Below are positions 13,779-54,660 of a DNA stretch of 64,000 nucleotides, piece after piece. The notes under the pieces are model-generated. The model was not told the DNA's origin. It ran no database searches and worked only from the letters and a program-made list of their open reading frames with translations. Made by a program: the position numbers and the translations under genes. Numbering within the stretch: position 1 is the first letter of the stretch; every line of letters begins with the position of its first letter. Origin of the DNA: a bacterium BMS3Bbin13. GTDB taxonomy: Bacteria > Pseudomonadota > Gammaproteobacteria > 21-64-14. The stretch lies in contig BDTW01000025.1 in NCBI GenBank assembly GCA_002897735.1, positions 1 through 64,000 of the forward strand, read 5' to 3'.

Positions 13779-15134
13779 TCAGAACGACCAGACCACCTGT
13801 CCGCCGAATAGATCGACATCCGACTCGTTGGTCCCTGCGAGGTCGTGTCCGGGGAGGGCGGTATCGTTCGTCGAACTGTCGCCCACGAACAGATGCGCGT
13901 AGCTCAGGTCGAAGCGCAACGCCGGCGTGTATTGATAGCTCGCTCCGAGCGCGAGCCAGCGGCGGGTCGCCCCCGGGATGCGCGGCGTGCGGTGACCGGG
14001 GTCCGGGATGGGGGTCGGGTCGTAGGCGAGACCGCCACGCAGGGTCAGCCGGTCGGTGTAGCGGTAATCGGCCCCCACGGAGAAACGCCAAGTGTTCTGC
14101 CACGCCTCCGGCCGGCTCGCCGGCCCCTGGGCGCCCCGATCGAACCGGACCACCAGGTTGTCGAAGTGCGACCAGTGCGTCCATGTGAAGCCGCCCATCA
14201 CCGCCAGGCGCCGGTCGACCTCGTGGTAGACGGCGCCGGAGATCGTTTCGGGCGGTGTGATTTCCGCGCTCGCACCGGTGTCCACGAACAGGCCCCTATC
14301 GGTGAACAGTGCGGGCATGTTGGAGAATCGGGCGGTGCCGGTGAGGGTATGGTGCACCTTGGATCGGTAGCTCAGGCCGAAGCGGGTGCCGGGGGTCGGT
14401 GCGTACAGCACGCCGAGGTTGTAGCCCAGGGCCCAGTCGTCGCCGGAGACCCGGACGAAGCCGTCGGTGGCGGGAGTGCCCGGCGTCGCCAGTCCGGCGG
14501 GCGCGCAGGCGCCGGGACCGAAGAGTCCCAGGCACACGGCGGAGTTGTCGATCGCGTTGGTGAGCGTGGCCTCCGCGTACTGGATATCGAGCCCGATCCC
14601 GACGGAGAGCCGGTCGGTGGCCGCGAAGGCGACGGACGGGTCGAGGTTGATGGTCTTGAGGTCGGATTTCACCGCCTGGTAGCGACCCTTCCAGCCCTCG
14701 GGGTAGTCGGTGCGCAGGCCGAACGGGGCGTTCAGGCCCAGCCCGATGCGCCAGTGCGGCACGACCTGCATCTGATAGTAGAGGTTGGGTACGATGCCGG
14801 TGAGCGCGGGGTCGCCGCCGTTGCCGCCGGGAATGATTCCGCCGCCCAGCGCCGGGGCAAGTTTGGCGGTGCCGGAGAATCGCGTCGAGGGATCGATGAC
14901 ATTCACCGCAGCGACCACCTGGCGATCCGGCAGCAGAGTCATGCCCGCAGGGTTGAAGAAGATCGTGCTCGCGTCCCGGGCGCTCGCCGCGGCGCCTGCG
15001 AAGGCGTTGCCCATACCGCTGCCGCTCTGCTCGGTGATCGCAAAGCCGGCGCCGTAGGCGTTCGCCGCGGCGCACAGGGCGCCGGCGACCGACAGCACGC
15101 GGATCACCCGGGTGGGTGGTTTGCGTATCTTCAT
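13779..15134 (-). CDS. fadL: FadL-family outer-membrane transporter
   Basis: A 451-residue protein with a signal peptide (ending …NAYGAGF) and the FadL hallmark N-terminus AGFAITEQSGSGMGNAFAGAAASARDASTIFFNPAGMTLL. The C-terminus ends in a beta-strand with terminal Phe (…QVVWSF). FadL-type barrels let hydrophobic compounds such as fatty acids or aromatics cross the outer membrane. The start at 15134 is chosen for its GGAGGAGG Shine-Dalgarno and because the signal peptide starts there; the frame stays open to 15245 but encodes a Gly/Thr-rich stretch. Cysteines in SAVCLGLFGPGACAP could make an external disulfide. Confidence 0.92.
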   Translation of the reverse strand: MKIRKPPTRVIRVLSVAGALCAAANAYGAGFAITEQSGSGMGNAFAGAAASARDASTIFFNPAGMTLLPDRQVVAAVNVIDPSTRFSGTAKLAPALGGGIIPGGNGGDPALTGIVPNLYYQMQVVPHWRIGLGLNAPFGLRTDYPEGWKGRYQAVKSDLKTINLDPSVAFAATDRLSVGIGLDIQYAEATLTNAIDNSAVCLGLFGPGACAPAGLATPGTPATDGFVRVSGDDWALGYNLGVLYAPTPGTRFGLSYRSKVHHTLTGTARFSNMPALFTDRGLFVDTGASAEITPPETISGAVYHEVDRRLAVMGGFTWTHWSHFDNLVVRFDRGAQGPASRPEAWQNTWRFSVGADYRYTDRLTLRGGLAYDPTPIPDPGHRTPRIPGATRRWLALGASYQYTPALRFDLSYAHLFVGDSSTNDTALPGHDLAGTNESDVDLFGGQVVWSF

Positions 15135-15549
15135 GCCTCCTCCTGTCGTTCCGGTTGTCGTTGTTCCGTGCCCGCGACCGGACCCGTCGGGCGTCCCGGC
15201 GTCGCGCCGGGACACCCCATCCCCGCCCATTGTAGCGGATCGCACTACGTCGCGCCGCGCCCGGGCCGGGTCTTCCCGGCCGATGTGTGCGCATGGGGAG
15301 GAAGGGCGAGCGGCGCCGGCGGGACGATCCGATTGGTCCTGCGGGACGGGCGGATCGTCCGCGTGAGGTGGTGGGCGGCCGGTGGCGGTGTGGGCGGCGG
15401 GAGGCGAACTGAGCGACGCGTGGGCGCTGTGCCCGGGGCCGTTCGCCGCGGCATTACGGGTCCCTTATCGGGGATGTTAAAGATCCCCAGGGGGTGGCCG
15501 ATGGACTGGAGGCTTGATCTGTAACTTCATTTTGCAGAGGAGAAGGGCG
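15135..15549. other. Divergent intergenic region upstream of fadL-like and 15550 genes
   Basis: About 415 bases without a supported gene. The one clear structure is a hairpin at 15470-15488 (GGGGAT / ATCCCC, loop GTTAAAG) about 60 bases before the next plus-strand start. It lacks a T run, so it may be a leader structure or operator. The rest is GC-rich with no recognised motif. Confidence 0.4.
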
Positions 15550-15849
15550 ATGGAGTTCGATCCCGTGACGATCGTTATTACGATCGCAATTGCCGCCATG
15601 CTGTATTGCATGTGGATGGTGGTCTCCTTGAAGAGCCAGATTCCCGGGGGGGTGGTCGGGAGAAAGTGGAACATCGTGATCCTGCTGGTGGCCATGTTCA
15701 CCGCAGGATACATGGCGCTGCCGTTCTTCAACCGGATTCCGGACGAAATCCTGCGGATGATCGTCTCGTTCGTGTTTCTGGGAGGGGCCATCTACGTGCT
15801 CATTACCGTAAGGCTGATTTATGCCATCATCCAGGAACTGACCGAGTAA
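15550..15849 (+). CDS. Small three-helix membrane protein, unknown
   Basis: A 99-residue protein with three predicted membrane helices (about residues 6-24, 41-58 and 66-92). An acidic loop, NRIPDEILR, lies between the last two. A GAGGAGAAGG Shine-Dalgarno precedes the ATG at 15550. I do not recognise the family. It is followed after 30 bases by another unknown gene on the same strand, so the two are probably cotranscribed. Confidence 0.75.
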   Translation: MEFDPVTIVITIAIAAMLYCMWMVVSLKSQIPGGVVGRKWNIVILLVAMFTAGYMALPFFNRIPDEILRMIVSFVFLGGAIYVLITVRLIYAIIQELTE

Positions 15850-45274: not shown

Positions 45275-47010
45275 GCGGGAATGCACAGCCGAACGGCGAG
45301 CCGCTGATCCTGGTCGTGGACGACGACCCGGCCACGCGCCTCATCGTGCGCCGGGCCCTCGAGCGCGACGGTTATCGGGTCGAGGAGGCGGCCGACGGCG
45401 CGGCGGCCCTGGAGTGCTTCGAGCGCCTCGGTCCGGATCTGATCCTCATGGACGCGGTCATGCCCGGCATGGACGGTTTCACCGCCTGCGCCCGTCTGCA
45501 GCGCCTGCCGGGCGGCGGTCTCACGCCGGTGCTGATCATCACCGTTCTCGACGACGAGGCGTCGGTGGATCGGGCCTTCGAGAGCGGCGCCAGCGACTAT
45601 ATCCAGAAGCCGATCCGCTGGGCGGTGCTGCGCCGTCGCGTGCGGCGCATGCTCACCGAGAGCCGCGCCGAGCGCCACGTCAACCACCTCGCCTATCATG
45701 ATGCCCTGACCGACCTTCCCAACCGGCGCCTGTTCGCCGATCAACTGGAGCAGCGTACCGAGCTGGCGCGGCGCAAGGGCCAGCCGCTCGCGCTGCTGTT
45801 TCTGGACCTCGATCGTTTCAAACTCATCAACGACTCGTTGGGCCATGACATGGGTGACCTGCTCATCCAGTCGGTGGCGCAGCGCTTGATGGGCGTGGTG
45901 CGCAAGAGCGACGTCGTGGGTCGGCTGGGCGGTGACGAGTTCACGGTAATCGTCGAGAGCGTCACCTCCGCGCAGGATTCGGCGGTGATCGCCCAGAAGT
46001 TGATCGACACCCTGGCCGAACCCTTCATGCTCAATACGCACGAGATCTTCGTTACGGTGAGCGTCGGCATCGCACTGTATCCGTTCGACGGCGACCAGTC
46101 CGGGACGCTGATCAAGAATGCCGATGCCGCCATGTATCGGGCCAAGGAGCACGGGCGCAACAACTATCAGTTCTACACGGCGGAGATGGGCGCCCGGGCC
46201 ATGGAGCGGTTGGCCCTGGAGACCAACCTGCGCCGCGCCCTGGAACGCGATGAGTTTCTGCTGCACTACCAGCCGCAGGTACGGCTCGATTCCGGGGAAA
46301 TGTTCGGGCTCGAGGCGCTGGTGCGCTGGAACCACCCGGATCTGGGCCTGGTGGCGCCGGGCGAATTCATCCAGCTCGCCGAGGAGACCGGGCTTATCGT
46401 GCCGATCGGCGCGTGGGTACTGCGCAGCGCCTGCCGGCAGGCCCGGGCATGGTGCGACGCCGGCCGGGCCGGGTTGCGTGTCGCGGTCAACCTGTCCGGG
46501 CGCCAGTTGCGTCAGCGGAACCTCGTCGAGGTGGTGCGCAAGGCGCTCGCCGAGACCGGGCTGTCCCCGGAGGGGCTCGAGCTGGAATTGACCGAGAGCA
46601 GCGTCATGCACAAGGACGAACTCACGAGTTCAACCTTGTGGGCGCTGCACGAGATGGGCATCCGTCTGTCGATCGACGATTTCGGTACCGGCTACTCCAA
46701 CCTCGGTTACCTCAAGCGTTTCCCCATCGACAGCCTCAAGATCGACCGCTCCTTCGTGCGTGACATCACCACCGATCCGGACGACGCCGCCATCGCCACG
46801 GCCATCATCGCCATGGCCCATAACCTCAAGCTCGAAGTGATCGCCGAGGGTGTGGAGACGAACGAGCAGAGGGACCTCCTCCGCGAACGTGGCTGCGACG
46901 CCATCCAGGGGTTCCTGGTCGGCAGCCCGGCCCCGGCGGAGGCCTATACCGATGTCCAGGGTGCGCTGTCCAAGTGTTCCGCCAAGGACCCCGCCGACCA
47001 CGCCGTCTGA
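45271..47010 (+). CDS. Response regulator with GGDEF and EAL domains
   Basis: A 579-residue REC-GGDEF-EAL protein. The REC has Asp61 ([13 protein letters not shown]). The GGDEF domain has an intact GGDEF (residues 220-224) and an upstream RxxD inhibitory site (Arg211-Asp214), so it could make c-di-GMP under product control. The EAL domain keeps EAL (348-350), [10 protein letters not shown] and the EGVET motif, so it could also hydrolyse c-di-GMP. Which activity dominates cannot be read. Overlap with the kinase gene implies that it is the output of that phosphorelay. Confidence 0.94.
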
Positions 47011-50969: not shown

Positions 50970-52076
50970 ATGCCTTTGAATACCATCCCGGAGATCATCG
51001 AGGACATCCGCCACGGCCGGATGGTCGTCATCATGGACGATGAGGAACGCGAGAACGAGGGCGATTTGCTGATGGCCGCCTCCCTGGCCACGCCCGAGGA
51101 CATCAATTTCATGGCGCGCTACGGGCGCGGTCTGATCTGCCTGCCCATGCCGAGCGAGCGCTGTCGGCAGCTGGGGCTGCCGCTCATGGTCTCGCGTACC
51201 GAATCGCTCTATCCCACCAATTTCACGGTATCCATCGAGGCCGCCAGCGGCGTCACCACCGGAATCTCGGCGGCGGACCGGGCGGTCACCGTGCGCGCCG
51301 CGGTGGCGCCGGACGCACGGCCGGAGGACCTGGTCTCGCCCGGTCACATCTTTCCGATCATGGCGCAGCCGGGCGGCGTGCTGACCCGGGCGGGTCATAC
51401 CGAGGCCGGCTGCGACCTGACGGGGCTCGCAGGGCTCGAGCCGGCCGCGGTGATCGTCGAGATCCTCAACGAAGACGGCACCATGGCGCGGCGCCCGGAG
51501 CTGGAGGGGTTCGCCGCGCGGCATGGTCTCAAGATCGGCACGATCGCCGATCTGATCCGCTACCGGATCGCGCACGAGAAGACCGTGCAGCGTGTCGCCG
51601 AGTGCGACCTGGACACCGGCTTCGGGGCGTTCCGGGTCGTCAGCTACCAGGATCCGGTGGACGACCAAGTCCACTTTGCGATGGTCAGGGGCGCGATCGA
51701 TCCGGCGCGCCCGGTCCTGGTCCGCGTGCAGGTGCTCGATACGCTGACCGACGTGCTGGGCATGGTGCATGGGCGCGGCGGTTGGACGCTGCATCGCGCG
51801 CTCGCCCGCGTGGCGCAGGAAGGCGAGGGCGTGGTGGTGGTGCTGCGCCACGGAGAAGATCCGCGTGCCCTGATCCGGCGCCTGCGGGATTGCAGCTTCG
51901 AGTCTTCCGAGTCGTCCCAACCCCCGGCCGGCGGCGCCGAGGACCTGCGCACGCTGGGGCTGGGCGCGCAGATCCTGAGCGACCTCGGGGTCCGGCGTAT
52001 GCGCGTGCTGAGCGCACCGAAGAAGGTCCATGCCCTCTCCGGCTTCGGCCTGGAAGTCGTCGAGTACGTGGAGTGA
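50970..52076 (+). CDS. ribBA: RibB with a degenerate RibA domain (RibBA/RibBX type)
   Basis: A 368-residue fusion. Residues about 1-200 are 3,4-dihydroxy-2-butanone-4-phosphate synthase with [15 protein letters not shown] and the [13 protein letters not shown] end. The C-terminal GTP-cyclohydrolase-II-like domain (about 210-365) lacks the GECLTGD and RCDC-type zinc-binding cysteines of an active RibA; only C-terminal [13 protein letters not shown] is recognisable. So only the RibB reaction is expected, as known for many gammaproteobacterial RibBX proteins, and a separate ribA should exist elsewhere. Next is the Fic islet rather than ribH. Confidence 0.92.
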
Positions 52077-52684
52077 GGGCCGACATCCCCACGGTTCGAC
52101 CGCCCGTGTTTCTCGGTAGGGCGGGCCTCGGCCCGCCGACGACGTTGGGGATTTCGACGCTGTGGCGGCATCCGTGTCGACCCGATTAAGAAATGTCCCT
52201 TTTTCCCCCATCGGCCCCCGGCCTGAAATACTCTCTGTTCGACGGTCGCCCCGGCGTCCGGGCGGTTGGGTACGATAACGAACGGGGCCAAGGTGACCAT
52301 CGGCATTCCCGGGGCGCAGAGACCGCCTATGCATTCAAAGGTGCCCGACCGCGATTACAGCAAGGTTCACGCGGAGGTCCAGCTCTGGTGGCCGCCGGGT
52401 TGCTCGACATCGGGGATGGCGGCGTGCAAGCGGATTATGAGGCGATAGAAACGAAGATCGCGATTTAAGGAACCCTCTTTTCCAGGTCCGTCCCGGGGAC
52501 CCGGGCCACGGTCGGGCGCGCGGACCCCAAATACTCATATGTCAAGCCTGACCCCGCGTTCTCGGTTGACTGTAATGGGGACATGTAGAAGACGTATTAT
52601 AGCTACGGTGTTTCGTAACTATATGATATATTACGCATCATTAGGGATCACCCTGCGGACATCAAAGCGGACATTTCAGCGGCC
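52077..52684. other. Islet left flank between ribBA and the fic gene
   Basis: About 600 bases with no supported gene. A single A element (GGCGGGCC-tc-GGCCCGCC) lies at 52120-52137. From about 52180 the sequence changes character, with runs such as TGTCCCTTTTTCCCCC, then an AT-rich stretch at 52570-52640 that includes the palindrome listed separately. Short open frames here look like neither known proteins nor clear transposase remains, although a decayed mobile element is possible. Confidence 0.45.
52614..52635. promoter_or_regulatory. AT-rich near-palindrome upstream of fic, candidate operator
   Basis: CGTAA-c-TATAT-g-ATATA-TTACG: two 10-base arms broken only by one extra base, about 50 bases before the fic ATG. 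The AT content is far below the local GC norm, and the site overlaps the likely promoter. The Fic protein itself ends in a winged-helix-like domain, so autoregulation is possible. Confidence 0.5.
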
Positions 52685-53875
52685 ATGGACCGAGGTGAAA
52701 GCATCGGGTTGATGGAGCCACTGCTCATCGGCGAAAGCTCCCGCCATAGAAGCGGCCTCACCGATCTGACCGTCGAACTCGCGGCCAGGGCCGCCGGTTT
52801 ACGTCGCAGCCTGCCGGAGGGCGTGCGCACGGCTCTGGCCGACTTGGTCCGGGCTATGAACTGCTACTACAGCAACCTGATCGAGGGCCATGACACGCAC
52901 CCGGTTGAAATCGAGCGGGCGCTCAGGAACGATTACAGCACTGACGCGCGCAAGCGCGATCTCCAACTCGAAGCCAAGGCGCACATCACCGTGCAGCGCT
53001 GGATCGATGCCGGTGGCCTCGCAGGCCGAGCCGTCACGGTGGAAGGGATTCGCGAGGTTCACCGGCGCTTCGGCGAGCTGCTGCCGGAGGACCTGCTTTG
53101 GGTGCAAGACCCGGACACCGGCGAGCGCCTGAAGATTGTCCCCGGCGAACTCAGGCGCCGCGACGTGAAAGTCGGCCGGCACGTTGCGGTCAGCCCCGGC
53201 GCCATACCCCGGTTTCTCGCCCGTTTCGAGCGCGCTTACAGCCGCCTTGGCAAGACGGACGCGATCCCGGCCGCCGCCGCCGCCCATCACCGGCTCTTGT
53301 GGATCCACCCGTTCCTCGACGGCAATGGCCGCGTCGCGCGCCTGATGTCCCACGCCATGCTGCTGGAGACGTTGGATCCTGGCGGCATCTGGTCCATCGC
53401 GCGGGGCTTGGCGCGCAACGTCACAGCCTATAAGGGGCATCTGGCGTGCTGCGATCTGCCACGCCGCAACGACCTCGACGGCCGCGGTACCTTGAGCGAG
53501 GAGGCGCTGGCGGACTTCACCCGCTTTTTCCTCGAAGTGTGTATCGATCAGGTGAATTTCATGGAGGATCTGGTCCGGCCCGACCGTCTGCGCACGCGCA
53601 TCCTCCTGTGGGCGGAAGAGGAAACGCGCCTCGGCAAGCTGCCATCCAAGGCCGGCAACATCCTCGAAGCGGTCCTTTACCGCGGCGAGATTCCGCGCGG
53701 CGACGTGGCTGATTTGCTCGGCATTACGGCGCGTCATGCACGTCGTATCGTCGCCTCACTGGTGGATTACAGCGTACTCACGTCGGAAAGCCCGCGCGCT
53801 TCCTTGCGGCTTACCTTCCCCGCGGCACTGGCGCCGCGCTGGATGCCCGGGTTGTTCCCGGAGAGGGCGGGATAG
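52685..53875 (+). CDS. Fic-domain AMP-transferase, class II, with C-terminal winged helix
   Basis: A 396-residue Fic protein. The catalytic motif HPFLDGNGR starts at His208. An inhibitory (S/T)xxxE(G/N) motif, SNLIEG, lies at residues 63-68 before the Fic core, the class II arrangement, so the enzyme is self-inhibited. The C-terminus (about 315-390: LEAVLYRGEIPRGDVADLLGITARHARRIVASLVDYSVL) looks like a winged helix-turn-helix. Fic enzymes usually attach AMP to a protein hydroxyl. Upstream the frame stays open and protein-like (HPADIKADISAA) back to a stop at 52616-52618, so the natural start may lie upstream at a rare codon. Confidence 0.9.
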   Translation: MDRGESIGLMEPLLIGESSRHRSGLTDLTVELAARAAGLRRSLPEGVRTALADLVRAMNCYYSNLIEGHDTHPVEIERALRNDYSTDARKRDLQLEAKAHITVQRWIDAGGLAGRAVTVEGIREVHRRFGELLPEDLLWVQDPDTGERLKIVPGELRRRDVKVGRHVAVSPGAIPRFLARFERAYSRLGKTDAIPAAAAAHHRLLWIHPFLDGNGRVARLMSHAMLLETLDPGGIWSIARGLARNVTAYKGHLACCDLPRRNDLDGRGTLSEEALADFTRFFLEVCIDQVNFMEDLVRPDRLRTRILLWAEEETRLGKLPSKAGNILEAVLYRGEIPRGDVADLLGITARHARRIVASLVDYSVLTSESPRASLRLTFPAALAPRWMPGLFPERAG

Positions 53876-54180
53876 TTGTAGCCTACTGATCTTGGTGATG
53901 GATTCCGACGGCCTGCAGCGGAGTTATTTCATGGGCGAGAAGGTGTTGGGGTAAGTTCTGAACCTCCACACGGCTAAATCCGGGAAAGATCGGCACGCCA
54001 TCCCCGGATTTCGCTACGCTTCATCCAGGCTGCCATGTCCACGTCGCCCGGACGCAGCCCGAAGGCCGACGCCGCGGCGGCGTTCGTTGAAGCGCGCACA
54101 TCCCGCGTGTAGCATGGGCCGCACCCCGCGGACCGGGCGCCTTGGGGGCGCCGGCGGCAGGCGATCCGGAGTCTCAACGC
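53876..54180. other. Islet right flank between fic and ribH
   Basis: About 305 bases without a supported gene. It contains the inverted repeat at 53976-54011 (listed separately). A remnant frame at 53898-53954 could encode about 18 residues, but has no support. The ribH promoter or leader must lie in the right half. Confidence 0.45.
53976..54011. repeat. Inverted repeat with AAATCCGGG arms (widespread intergenic element)
   Basis: AAATCCGGG (53976-53984) and CCCGGATTT (54003-54011) face each other across 18 bases, followed on the minus-strand reading by GAAGCGTAGC. The GAAGCGTAGCGAAATCCGGG type element is a common short intergenic repeat in proteobacterial genomes. It occurs once in the window, next to the Fic gene. 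Confidence 0.6.
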
Positions 54181-54660
54181 ATGACCCGAACCACGAAGAC
54201 CGTCAGCGGTGAACTCACGGTGCGCGACGCCCGCTTCGCGCTGGTCGCCTCGCGATTCAACGCCTTTATCGTGGAGCGGCTCGTGGACGGGGCGGTGGAC
54301 ACCCTGGTGCGGCACGGTGCTTCGGAGAACGATCTGGAGATCGTGCAGGTGCCCGGGGCCTTCGAGCTCCCGTTGGCGGTGAAGCAGCTCGCCGCCGCGC
54401 ACCGCTTCGATGCCATCGTCGTGCTCGGTTGTGTGATCCGCGGCGCCACTCCGCACTTCGATTATGTCGCCGGCGAGTGCGTGAAGGGCATCGCGGCTGT
54501 CTCCCTGGAGCATCAGATCCCGGTCGGGTTCGGTGTGCTCACCGTCGACAGCATCGAGCAGGCCATCGAGCGTGCCGGTGCCAAGGCGGGCAACAAGGGG
54601 GTGGATGCGGCGTTGTCGGCCATCGAGATGGTCGATTTACTGCGCCGGCTCGGTCGGTGA
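54181..54660 (+). CDS. ribH: 6,7-dimethyl-8-ribityllumazine synthase
   Basis: A 159-residue lumazine synthase with [19 protein letters not shown] (substrate loop), [15 protein letters not shown] and [13 protein letters not shown] (catalytic His region). It condenses the RibB and RibD products to the lumazine precursor of riboflavin. Length is normal. The ATG at 54181 starts [12 protein letters not shown]. It is followed by nusB after 6 bases, as in many Gammaproteobacteria, so ribH-nusB-thiL-pgpA form a unit separated from ribBA by the Fic islet. Confidence 0.95.

Follow-up and report, generated by a model that had tools for sequence, protein, structure and literature searches.

How did a gene for a Fic protein come to stand by itself between two riboflavin genes, and what controls it there? 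In the bacterium BMS3Bbin13 (assembly of 2.69 Mb, 96.9% complete), a 64-kb stretch of contig C25, here called the window, has a gap of 2104 bp between ribBA and ribH (52077-54180), and the only intact gene inside this gap encodes a Fic protein. An earlier note, made from the sequence alone, had read the gap as an acquired, self-regulated islet with an AT-rich near-palindrome as its control site. We propose that the Fic protein very probably binds repeats of its own, head to tail, and represses itself, and that the gene was acquired horizontally as a single-gene module with its own operator.

The Fic gene (52685-53875, plus strand) encodes 396 residues of a putative nucleotidyl-transferase and matches the Pfam Fic family (PF02661, E 3.8e-16). 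The protein has the catalytic motif HPFLDGNGRVAR at residues 208-219 (53306-53341), of the HPFx[DE]GN[GK]R type, and an N-terminal inhibitory-helix motif of the form [ST]xxxE[GN], here SNLIEG at residues 63-68 (52871-52888), which is invariant in 76 aligned sequences. An AlphaFold2 model (mean predicted local distance difference test score of 89) places a winged helix at the C-terminus, about residues 323-376 (53651-53812). These results confirm the earlier reading of a self-inhibited class II Fic protein with a C-terminal winged-helix-like domain. Compared with three homologues of 85-86% identity, the ratio of non-synonymous to synonymous substitution (dN/dS) is ∼0.13-0.16 (dN 0.07-0.08, dS 0.48-0.55), and the gene is therefore under purifying selection along those branches.

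Direct repeats on both sides of the Fic promoter

The Fic promoter is flanked on both sides by 12-bp direct repeats, overlooked by the earlier note, whose family sequence is AAGCGGACATnn. Across 83 loci, pairs of the core [GC][CA]GG[ACT]C occurred 138 times at a distance of 12 bp, 45 times at 24 bp and 12 times at 36 bp, whereas Markov shuffles gave an expectation of 0.2-0.4 and other spacings up to 40 bp yielded 0-5 pairs. In the same loci, CGG[ACT]CA was enriched on the coding strand only and in two zones only, ∼130-200 bp and ∼40-80 bp before the codon of a conserved Glu (residue 11); the stretch between the two zones is nearly motif-free. The upstream group lies outside the reading frame and the downstream group within the first codons, yet both have the identical consensus AAGCGG[A/C]CATnn. 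All 216 scored downstream copies are in one frame. Within these coding copies, GAC was used for 143 of 148 Asp residues, compared with 52% in the gene body, and GCG for 112 of 171 Ala residues, compared with 35%, with the caveat that the copies were chosen by a motif score that itself favours GCG GAC. The coding copies thus appear to conserve DNA sequence beyond the needs of the protein.

The position of the promoter is also shared. In 78 spacers from homologues, TGnTA, the signature of an extended -10 element, occurred 54 times at a distance of 29-30 bp ahead of the first downstream copy. The window was outside this count, as its upstream repeat call was out of phase, and its distances were read from scored positions. 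Here a predicted extended -10 element, TGATATATT (52624-52632, plus strand), lies 30 bp before a downstream array of three 12-bp copies, TGCGGACATCAA, AGCGGACATTTC and AGCGGCCATGGA, at 52654, 52666 and 52678 (52654-52689, plus strand). Upstream, motif scoring found a degenerate operator-like repeat, TGGGGACATGTA (52576-52587, plus strand), followed by a weaker copy at 52588. The distance from 52576 to 52654 is 78 bp, within the main class of the family (77-79 bp).

No exact copy of the repeat pair was found in the window's genome away from Fic. We considered whether the repeat marks a wider regulon and rejected this: the genome has 13 matches with up to 2 mismatches, compared with 6 for a reversed control, and the exact one is at Fic alone. 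Across the phylum (398 genomes) there were 22 exact matches, compared with ∼20 for the reversed control, and of the 21 outside the window none stands beside this Fic and nearly all look like chance matches in coding sequence. One of these matches, at locus L174 (genome G292, contig C1 near 2032626), belongs to an operator-like set of 12-bp repeats and has no Fic gene within 1.5 kb; a long open reading frame (ORF) adjoining the repeats resembles a serine recombinase, and the locus is possibly an orphan operator.

More distant homologues, comprising 29 loci from the 398-genome phylum sample (33 genomes match at 1e-30) and 16 plasmid loci, have mostly kept the 12-bp spacing, whereas their motifs vary from one subfamily to the next (TCGGCAA, CCGGCAA, TCGGCCA, TCGCTAC, GTGATCA, TTGGCAA, TTCGCCA, GTCGCA and others). 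In many of them only one copy overlaps the start. In a motif-free search for repeat triples in 137 loci, covering lags of 8 to 20 bp, the mean score was 20.1 at 12 bp and 11.2-14.0 at all others; L008 (the same as record L138) and L174, L218-L220, L224 and L230 (duplicates, truncated loci or loci with no Fic) had been left out beforehand. A 13-bp period was found in 11 of 129 loci; among the distant homologues, it occurs with CCGGCAA or TCGGCAA motifs at L191, L194, L210, L229, L238-L240 and L246. The seed 9-mers of the motif caller were written by hand after the sequences had been viewed, and the register assigned in the most distant subfamilies is a matter of judgement.

Covariation between the winged helix and the repeats

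If the protein reads its own repeats, residues of its winged helix would be expected to change together with the bases of the motif. Covariation was examined in 129 of the 137 loci (four had no called array and four were too short), with an effective number of 22.7 sequences, over 333 protein columns and 9 motif positions, or 2997 pairs. After average-product correction, the top pair was residue 350 with position 5 (normalised mutual information 0.87, z 9.7), the third was residue 354 with position 7 (z 4.7) and the fifth was residue 353 with position 4 (z 4.5). Residues 350, 353 and 354 all lie on one AlphaFold2 helix of the winged helix, residues 349-361 (53729-53767), which from the model and the covariation is the predicted recognition helix; in the window, all three are Arg. 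The associations are close: Arg350 occurs with G5 in 121 of 121 loci and Arg353 with G4 in 123 of 124, and Arg354 occurs with C7 in 100 of 100 loci (as in a family with the core GCGGACAT), whereas Asn, Thr, Lys, Ser, Asp, Ala or Gly at 354 occurs with A7 in 29 of 29 (as in a family with TCGGCAAA).

A second signal comes from within the close family. In 82 close homologues, positions 4, 5 and 7 hardly vary, but position 6 does, and the protein columns that best match it are 348 and 351 (permutation z ∼10). Here His351 occurs with A in 32 of 33 cases and Gln351 with A in 28 of 40, while C or T accompanies all 9 cases of Asn, Thr, Ser or Ala at 351. Taken over the whole C-terminus versus the core, entropy-corrected mutual information was only borderline (p 0.056); therefore, the signal sits in the helix and not in the C-terminal domain as a whole. 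A parsimony count on a tree of the Fic core gave 7 changes at residue 354 and 7 at base 7, with the two in agreement in 129 of 129 rows.

The rules were then applied to 15 further loci, having been fixed before these were inspected. Twelve could be scored; the first Fic gene of L248 had no tblastn match at the cut-off, no winged helix was aligned for L252 and no array was called for L259. All 12 loci obeyed the rule for position 7 (the array call at L260 is weak), although several of them are closely related to loci used earlier. Arg350 occurred with G5 in 9 of 10 and Arg353 with G4 in 9 of 9. The converse rule, that a residue other than Arg means a base other than G, failed in 2 of 2 cases at residue 350 and 3 of 3 at residue 353.

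Several observations weigh against autorepression through these repeats. In the window itself, the upstream array is weak, with one clear copy, while the upstream zone holds at least two copies in most homologues. An in-frame stretch at 52640-52684 (plus strand) corresponds to the coding N-terminus in homologues, but the window has ATT at 52640-52642 where they have the start ATG; translation may have shifted to 52685, or ATT may serve as the start codon at 52640. No array could be obtained in 4 of the 137 loci. Within the covariation, some pairs off the helix have z values of 4 to 6.6 as well, among them G334 and H202 with position 1. Relatedness inflates the signal, and on well-supported branches there are four independent pairs of residue 354 and C7, which agree in 4 of 4 cases (sign test, p 0.125), too few to reach 0.05. 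Lys at 350 or 353 in two of the test loci still occurs with G, so a simple code is incomplete, and one homologue of 32% identity misses at positions 4 and 5. Finally, activation in place of repression would also be compatible with the sequence.

Setting and origin of the Fic gene

The genes around the gap are co-directional, in the order glyA-like, nrdR, ribD, ribE, ribBA, the gap, ribH, nusB and thiL-like. Pfam backs the identities of ribE, ribBA, ribH, nusB and nrdR; from their translations, we take the remaining three to be glyA-like, ribD and thiL-like. The left neighbour, ribBA (50970-52076, plus strand), matches DHBP_synthase and GTP_cyclohydro2, and the right neighbour, ribH (54181-54660, plus strand), matches DMRL_synthase. 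Among 29 other genomes in which the ribH locus was examined, ribBA lies within 1.5 kb upstream of ribH in 24, with 21 gaps of at most 114 bp and the rest of 232, 619 and 964 bp. Both the usual adjacency of the two genes and the 2.1-kb islet between them were therefore as the earlier note had described. Between positions 46000 and 58000, Rfam at gathering scores found no known RNA, riboswitches included.

The 964-bp gap belongs to the only other genome of the genus examined, G001, where a search for Fic at E 0.001 found nothing. Its ribBA shares 85% identity with that of the window and its ribH 92%, and DNA homology between the two ends at 52076 and starts again at 54071. The gap in G001 is filled with a tandem REP-like array in units of ∼120 bp (contig C56, about 14866-15700), and a single copy of this repeat is present in the window (52114-52146, plus strand). 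The comparison of related genomes that had been suggested thus found a ribBA-ribH site with a repeat array in place of Fic.

Homologues of the window's Fic are spread widely. The best 80 in the GTDB collection, many of them from metagenome bins, are 66-86% identical to it and come from records named Gamma-, Alpha-, Beta- and Deltaproteobacteria, Acidobacteria, Binatia, Nitrospira, Rhodothermales and Acidimicrobiia; 75 of the 80 were used for the fold alignment. By comparison, a sample of relatives from other families had a Fic match of at least 48% identity in only 3 of 53 genomes. Fic matches occur in 245 of 72,556 plasmid records and relatives on four viral contigs (IMG/VR), and the annotated phage records searched gave no match. 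Among 73 of the 80 loci, with ORFs of at least 70 residues compared, no neighbour cluster was common to more than three loci, and therefore no partner regulator is seen travelling with the gene. Since the homologues cross phyla without common neighbours, the mobile unit appears to be a single Fic gene with its control region.

An acquired gene is the part of the earlier reading that these comparisons support, with G001 lacking Fic and homologues of up to 86% identity standing in other families, classes and phyla. Base composition, by contrast, differs only mildly. The GC content is 63.0% in the islet and 58.3% in its 5' part, compared with 67.9% in the window. Alternatively, Fic could be an old resident that the sister species lost. 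We consider this possible but unlikely: a single congener was compared, the GC content of the gene is close to that of ribBA (66.0% vs 68.9%) and no clean empty site can be seen in the repeat array of the sister gap, but the closest relatives are in other families and classes, and matches are rare among the relatives sampled from other families.

What surrounds the gene elsewhere may bear on its use. In several plasmid loci, repABC or mob genes are neighbours of Fic, and in others toxin-antitoxin or defence genes; at L234, L239, L257, L258 and L262, Fic lies beside or near the repA/repB/repC partition-replication genes. Such neighbours fit a role in maintenance or defence and are not proof of one. 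A toxin for stress, defence or plasmid maintenance is the most plausible use of the module.

The remainder of the islet appears to be unrelated to the module. A decayed remnant of a DUF6516 (TumE-like) gene, also overlooked earlier, adjoins the Fic gene and lies outside its module (52193-52468, plus strand): the 91-residue ORF there matches DUF6516-annotated genes by tblastn, with E down to ∼1e-9 and over residues 5-57 only, and a Pfam search of it gave no match. Given this remnant, the islet is possibly a collecting spot for genes of the toxin-antitoxin type. The REP copy and the inverted repeat that had been noted on either side of Fic are both present, the latter as a copy of the AAATCCGGG family at 53973-54026, but neither is part of the module. 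The REP-like core has 196 genome-wide matches with up to 3 mismatches, compared with 2 for a reversed control, partly in tandem (for example, contig C48, 25174-26107), and the AAATCCGGG family has 95, compared with 0 for the control. Because each is a member of a genome-wide family, we rejected them as marks of the islet's ends.

Other possible readers of the repeats, known systems and a proposed mechanism

Could something other than Fic read the repeats? A host factor or another regulator might do so, with the covariation as a by-product of shared ancestry; the homologues are phylogenetically structured, and few independent switches fall on supported branches. Against this, of the five strongest pairs among 333 columns and 9 positions, three fall on one helix, and the finer signal within the close family falls on it too. 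The window's genome also contains another Fic gene, now decayed (contig C31:1074-1875, 42% identity, with about residues 223-349 missing), whose own array differs, being of the TCGGCCA type. No neighbouring regulator is common to the loci, and a spread over several phyla speaks against a single host factor. We therefore regard such a reader as very unlikely.

The near-palindrome at 52614-52635 might instead be the operator, bound by a Fic dimer in the way that CccR, discussed below, binds inverted repeats. With one bulge, it forms arms of 10 pairs, a quality reached in only 7 of 2000 shuffles. Ungapped, only 10 of 22 positions pair, and 1998 of 2000 shuffles were equal or better; it was present in 0 of 82 homologues, and it covers the extended -10 element, whose distance to the repeats is constant in homologues. 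We rejected it as the operator and consider it extremely improbable in that role. Self-regulation, as the earlier note proposed, is thus supported at the sequence level by an array that covaries with the recognition helix, and not by way of the palindrome that it named. Action of the repeats as RNA or peptide, through leader structure or an N-terminal peptide repeat, deserves next to no weight: the reading frame runs through the downstream copies, which encode peptide repeats such as ADI.ADI, but motif and period also occur upstream of the promoter outside the ORF, synonymous choice is constrained in the coding copies, and only one copy overlaps the start in many distant homologues.

With the Fic protein as the favoured reader, the nearest known system is CccR. 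The best structural match over both domains was 7xux (residues 8-393, Z 30.7, root-mean-square deviation (rmsd) 3.2, 345 aligned residues), which is CccR of Yersinia pseudotuberculosis (PMC9755527). According to that 2022 report, CccR is a type VI secretion system effector that has been shown experimentally to repress its own promoter through a helix-turn-helix (HTH) domain, as a dimer on the inverted repeat AGATAATCAT-N26-ATGATAATCT (PMC9755527). The window's Fic shares with CccR the N-terminal Fic domain, the C-terminal HTH (in the model) and the overall fold. It lacks the long-spacer inverted-repeat operator: where CccR has a 26-bp spacer, the window's family has direct repeats every 12 bp that flank the promoter and run into the coding sequence. 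The literature searched, whose coverage excluded most subscription papers and bioRxiv preprints, contained neither a direct-repeat operator of this kind nor a residue-base code described for Fic genes. Autorepression by a Fic-HTH protein is thus already known, and the 12-bp direct-repeat operator and the residue-base code appear to be new. Since the fold matches CccR best and this type of operator was not found elsewhere, we regard the family as a probable variant of the known Fic-HTH autorepressors.

Other systems are less close. CbFic2 of Coxiella burnetii (PDB 8cil) is likewise a class II Fic protein with a C-terminal HTH, and DNA binding is reported to alter its activity and oligomeric state; it differs in having been assayed on random DNA without a defined operator and in targeting histone H3 (PMC10628234). 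RptR, a repressor of a defence island, represses its own promoter via a series of direct repeats, but it is a separate repressor with 9-bp repeats on a TAGCTA palindrome and no enzyme domain (PMC12255303). Fic proteins with HTH domains were reported in 2009 and proposed there as possible regulators of fic (PMC2686095). For SoFic (PDB 3eqx/3zcn), the PADLOC model matches residues 34-367 (E 2.2e-23, no cut-off given) and the structural match has a Z of ∼25 and an rmsd of ∼6 over 328-335 residues, but the window's Fic is far below the NCBIfam SoFic equivalog cut-off (22 vs 550 bits). A published antitoxin, AS1, lies downstream of EcSofic, whereas no common neighbour was found in the window's family. 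The window's Fic is also unlike the class I toxin-antitoxin pairs VbhTA and FicTA, as the inhibitory motif is inside the Fic protein itself; a separate antitoxin gene beside Fic was sought as a conserved neighbour among ORFs of at least 70 residues, the search being confined to genes of that size, and none was found.

Winged helices of the PhoB/OmpR type also occupy direct repeats in head-to-tail order, at intervals of about one turn. Their repeats are ∼11 bp apart and their control is by response regulators; they are not homologous enzymes. Beyond the repeats, their spacing, the position of the promoter, the modelled fold and the residue-base covariation, which the analysis demonstrates, we infer physical binding, repression and head-to-tail order. 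On arrival in a new host, a Fic copy would be expressed from its own promoter. As the protein accumulates, winged helices would fill the repeats in one orientation and the promoter would close. Each Fic monomer would read one repeat with its one winged helix, the monomers standing side by side in the same direction. Arg350 and Arg353 would each read one of the two G's and Arg354 the G that pairs with C7, while residues 348 and 351 would face position 6. Fic would thereby be under a double restraint, with autorepression acting on the gene and the inhibitory helix keeping the enzyme low.

A bolder idea is that the operator array itself serves as the antitoxin. Fic bound head to tail on the repeats would shut the promoter and also keep the enzyme switched off or working in a different catalytic mode, in a likeness to the effect of DNA on CbFic2, and loss, degradation or dilution of the DNA, as in phage attack or plasmid loss, would both release and induce the enzyme. 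We consider this quite unlikely; if it were true, one gene and its operator would be all that a toxin-antitoxin-like module needs, with DNA in the role of antidote.

Winged-helix Fic genes are common and are mostly annotated just as 'Fic family protein'. A shared operator grammar of 12-bp direct repeats, in two groups and at a fixed position relative to the promoter, together with the residue-base code, would make the regulation of hundreds of them predictable from sequence. The code would also yield orthogonal repressor-operator pairs, and the part that DNA binding plays in Fic activity would be directly testable. Control that the gene brings with it may explain how a toxin-like gene can move alone between phyla.

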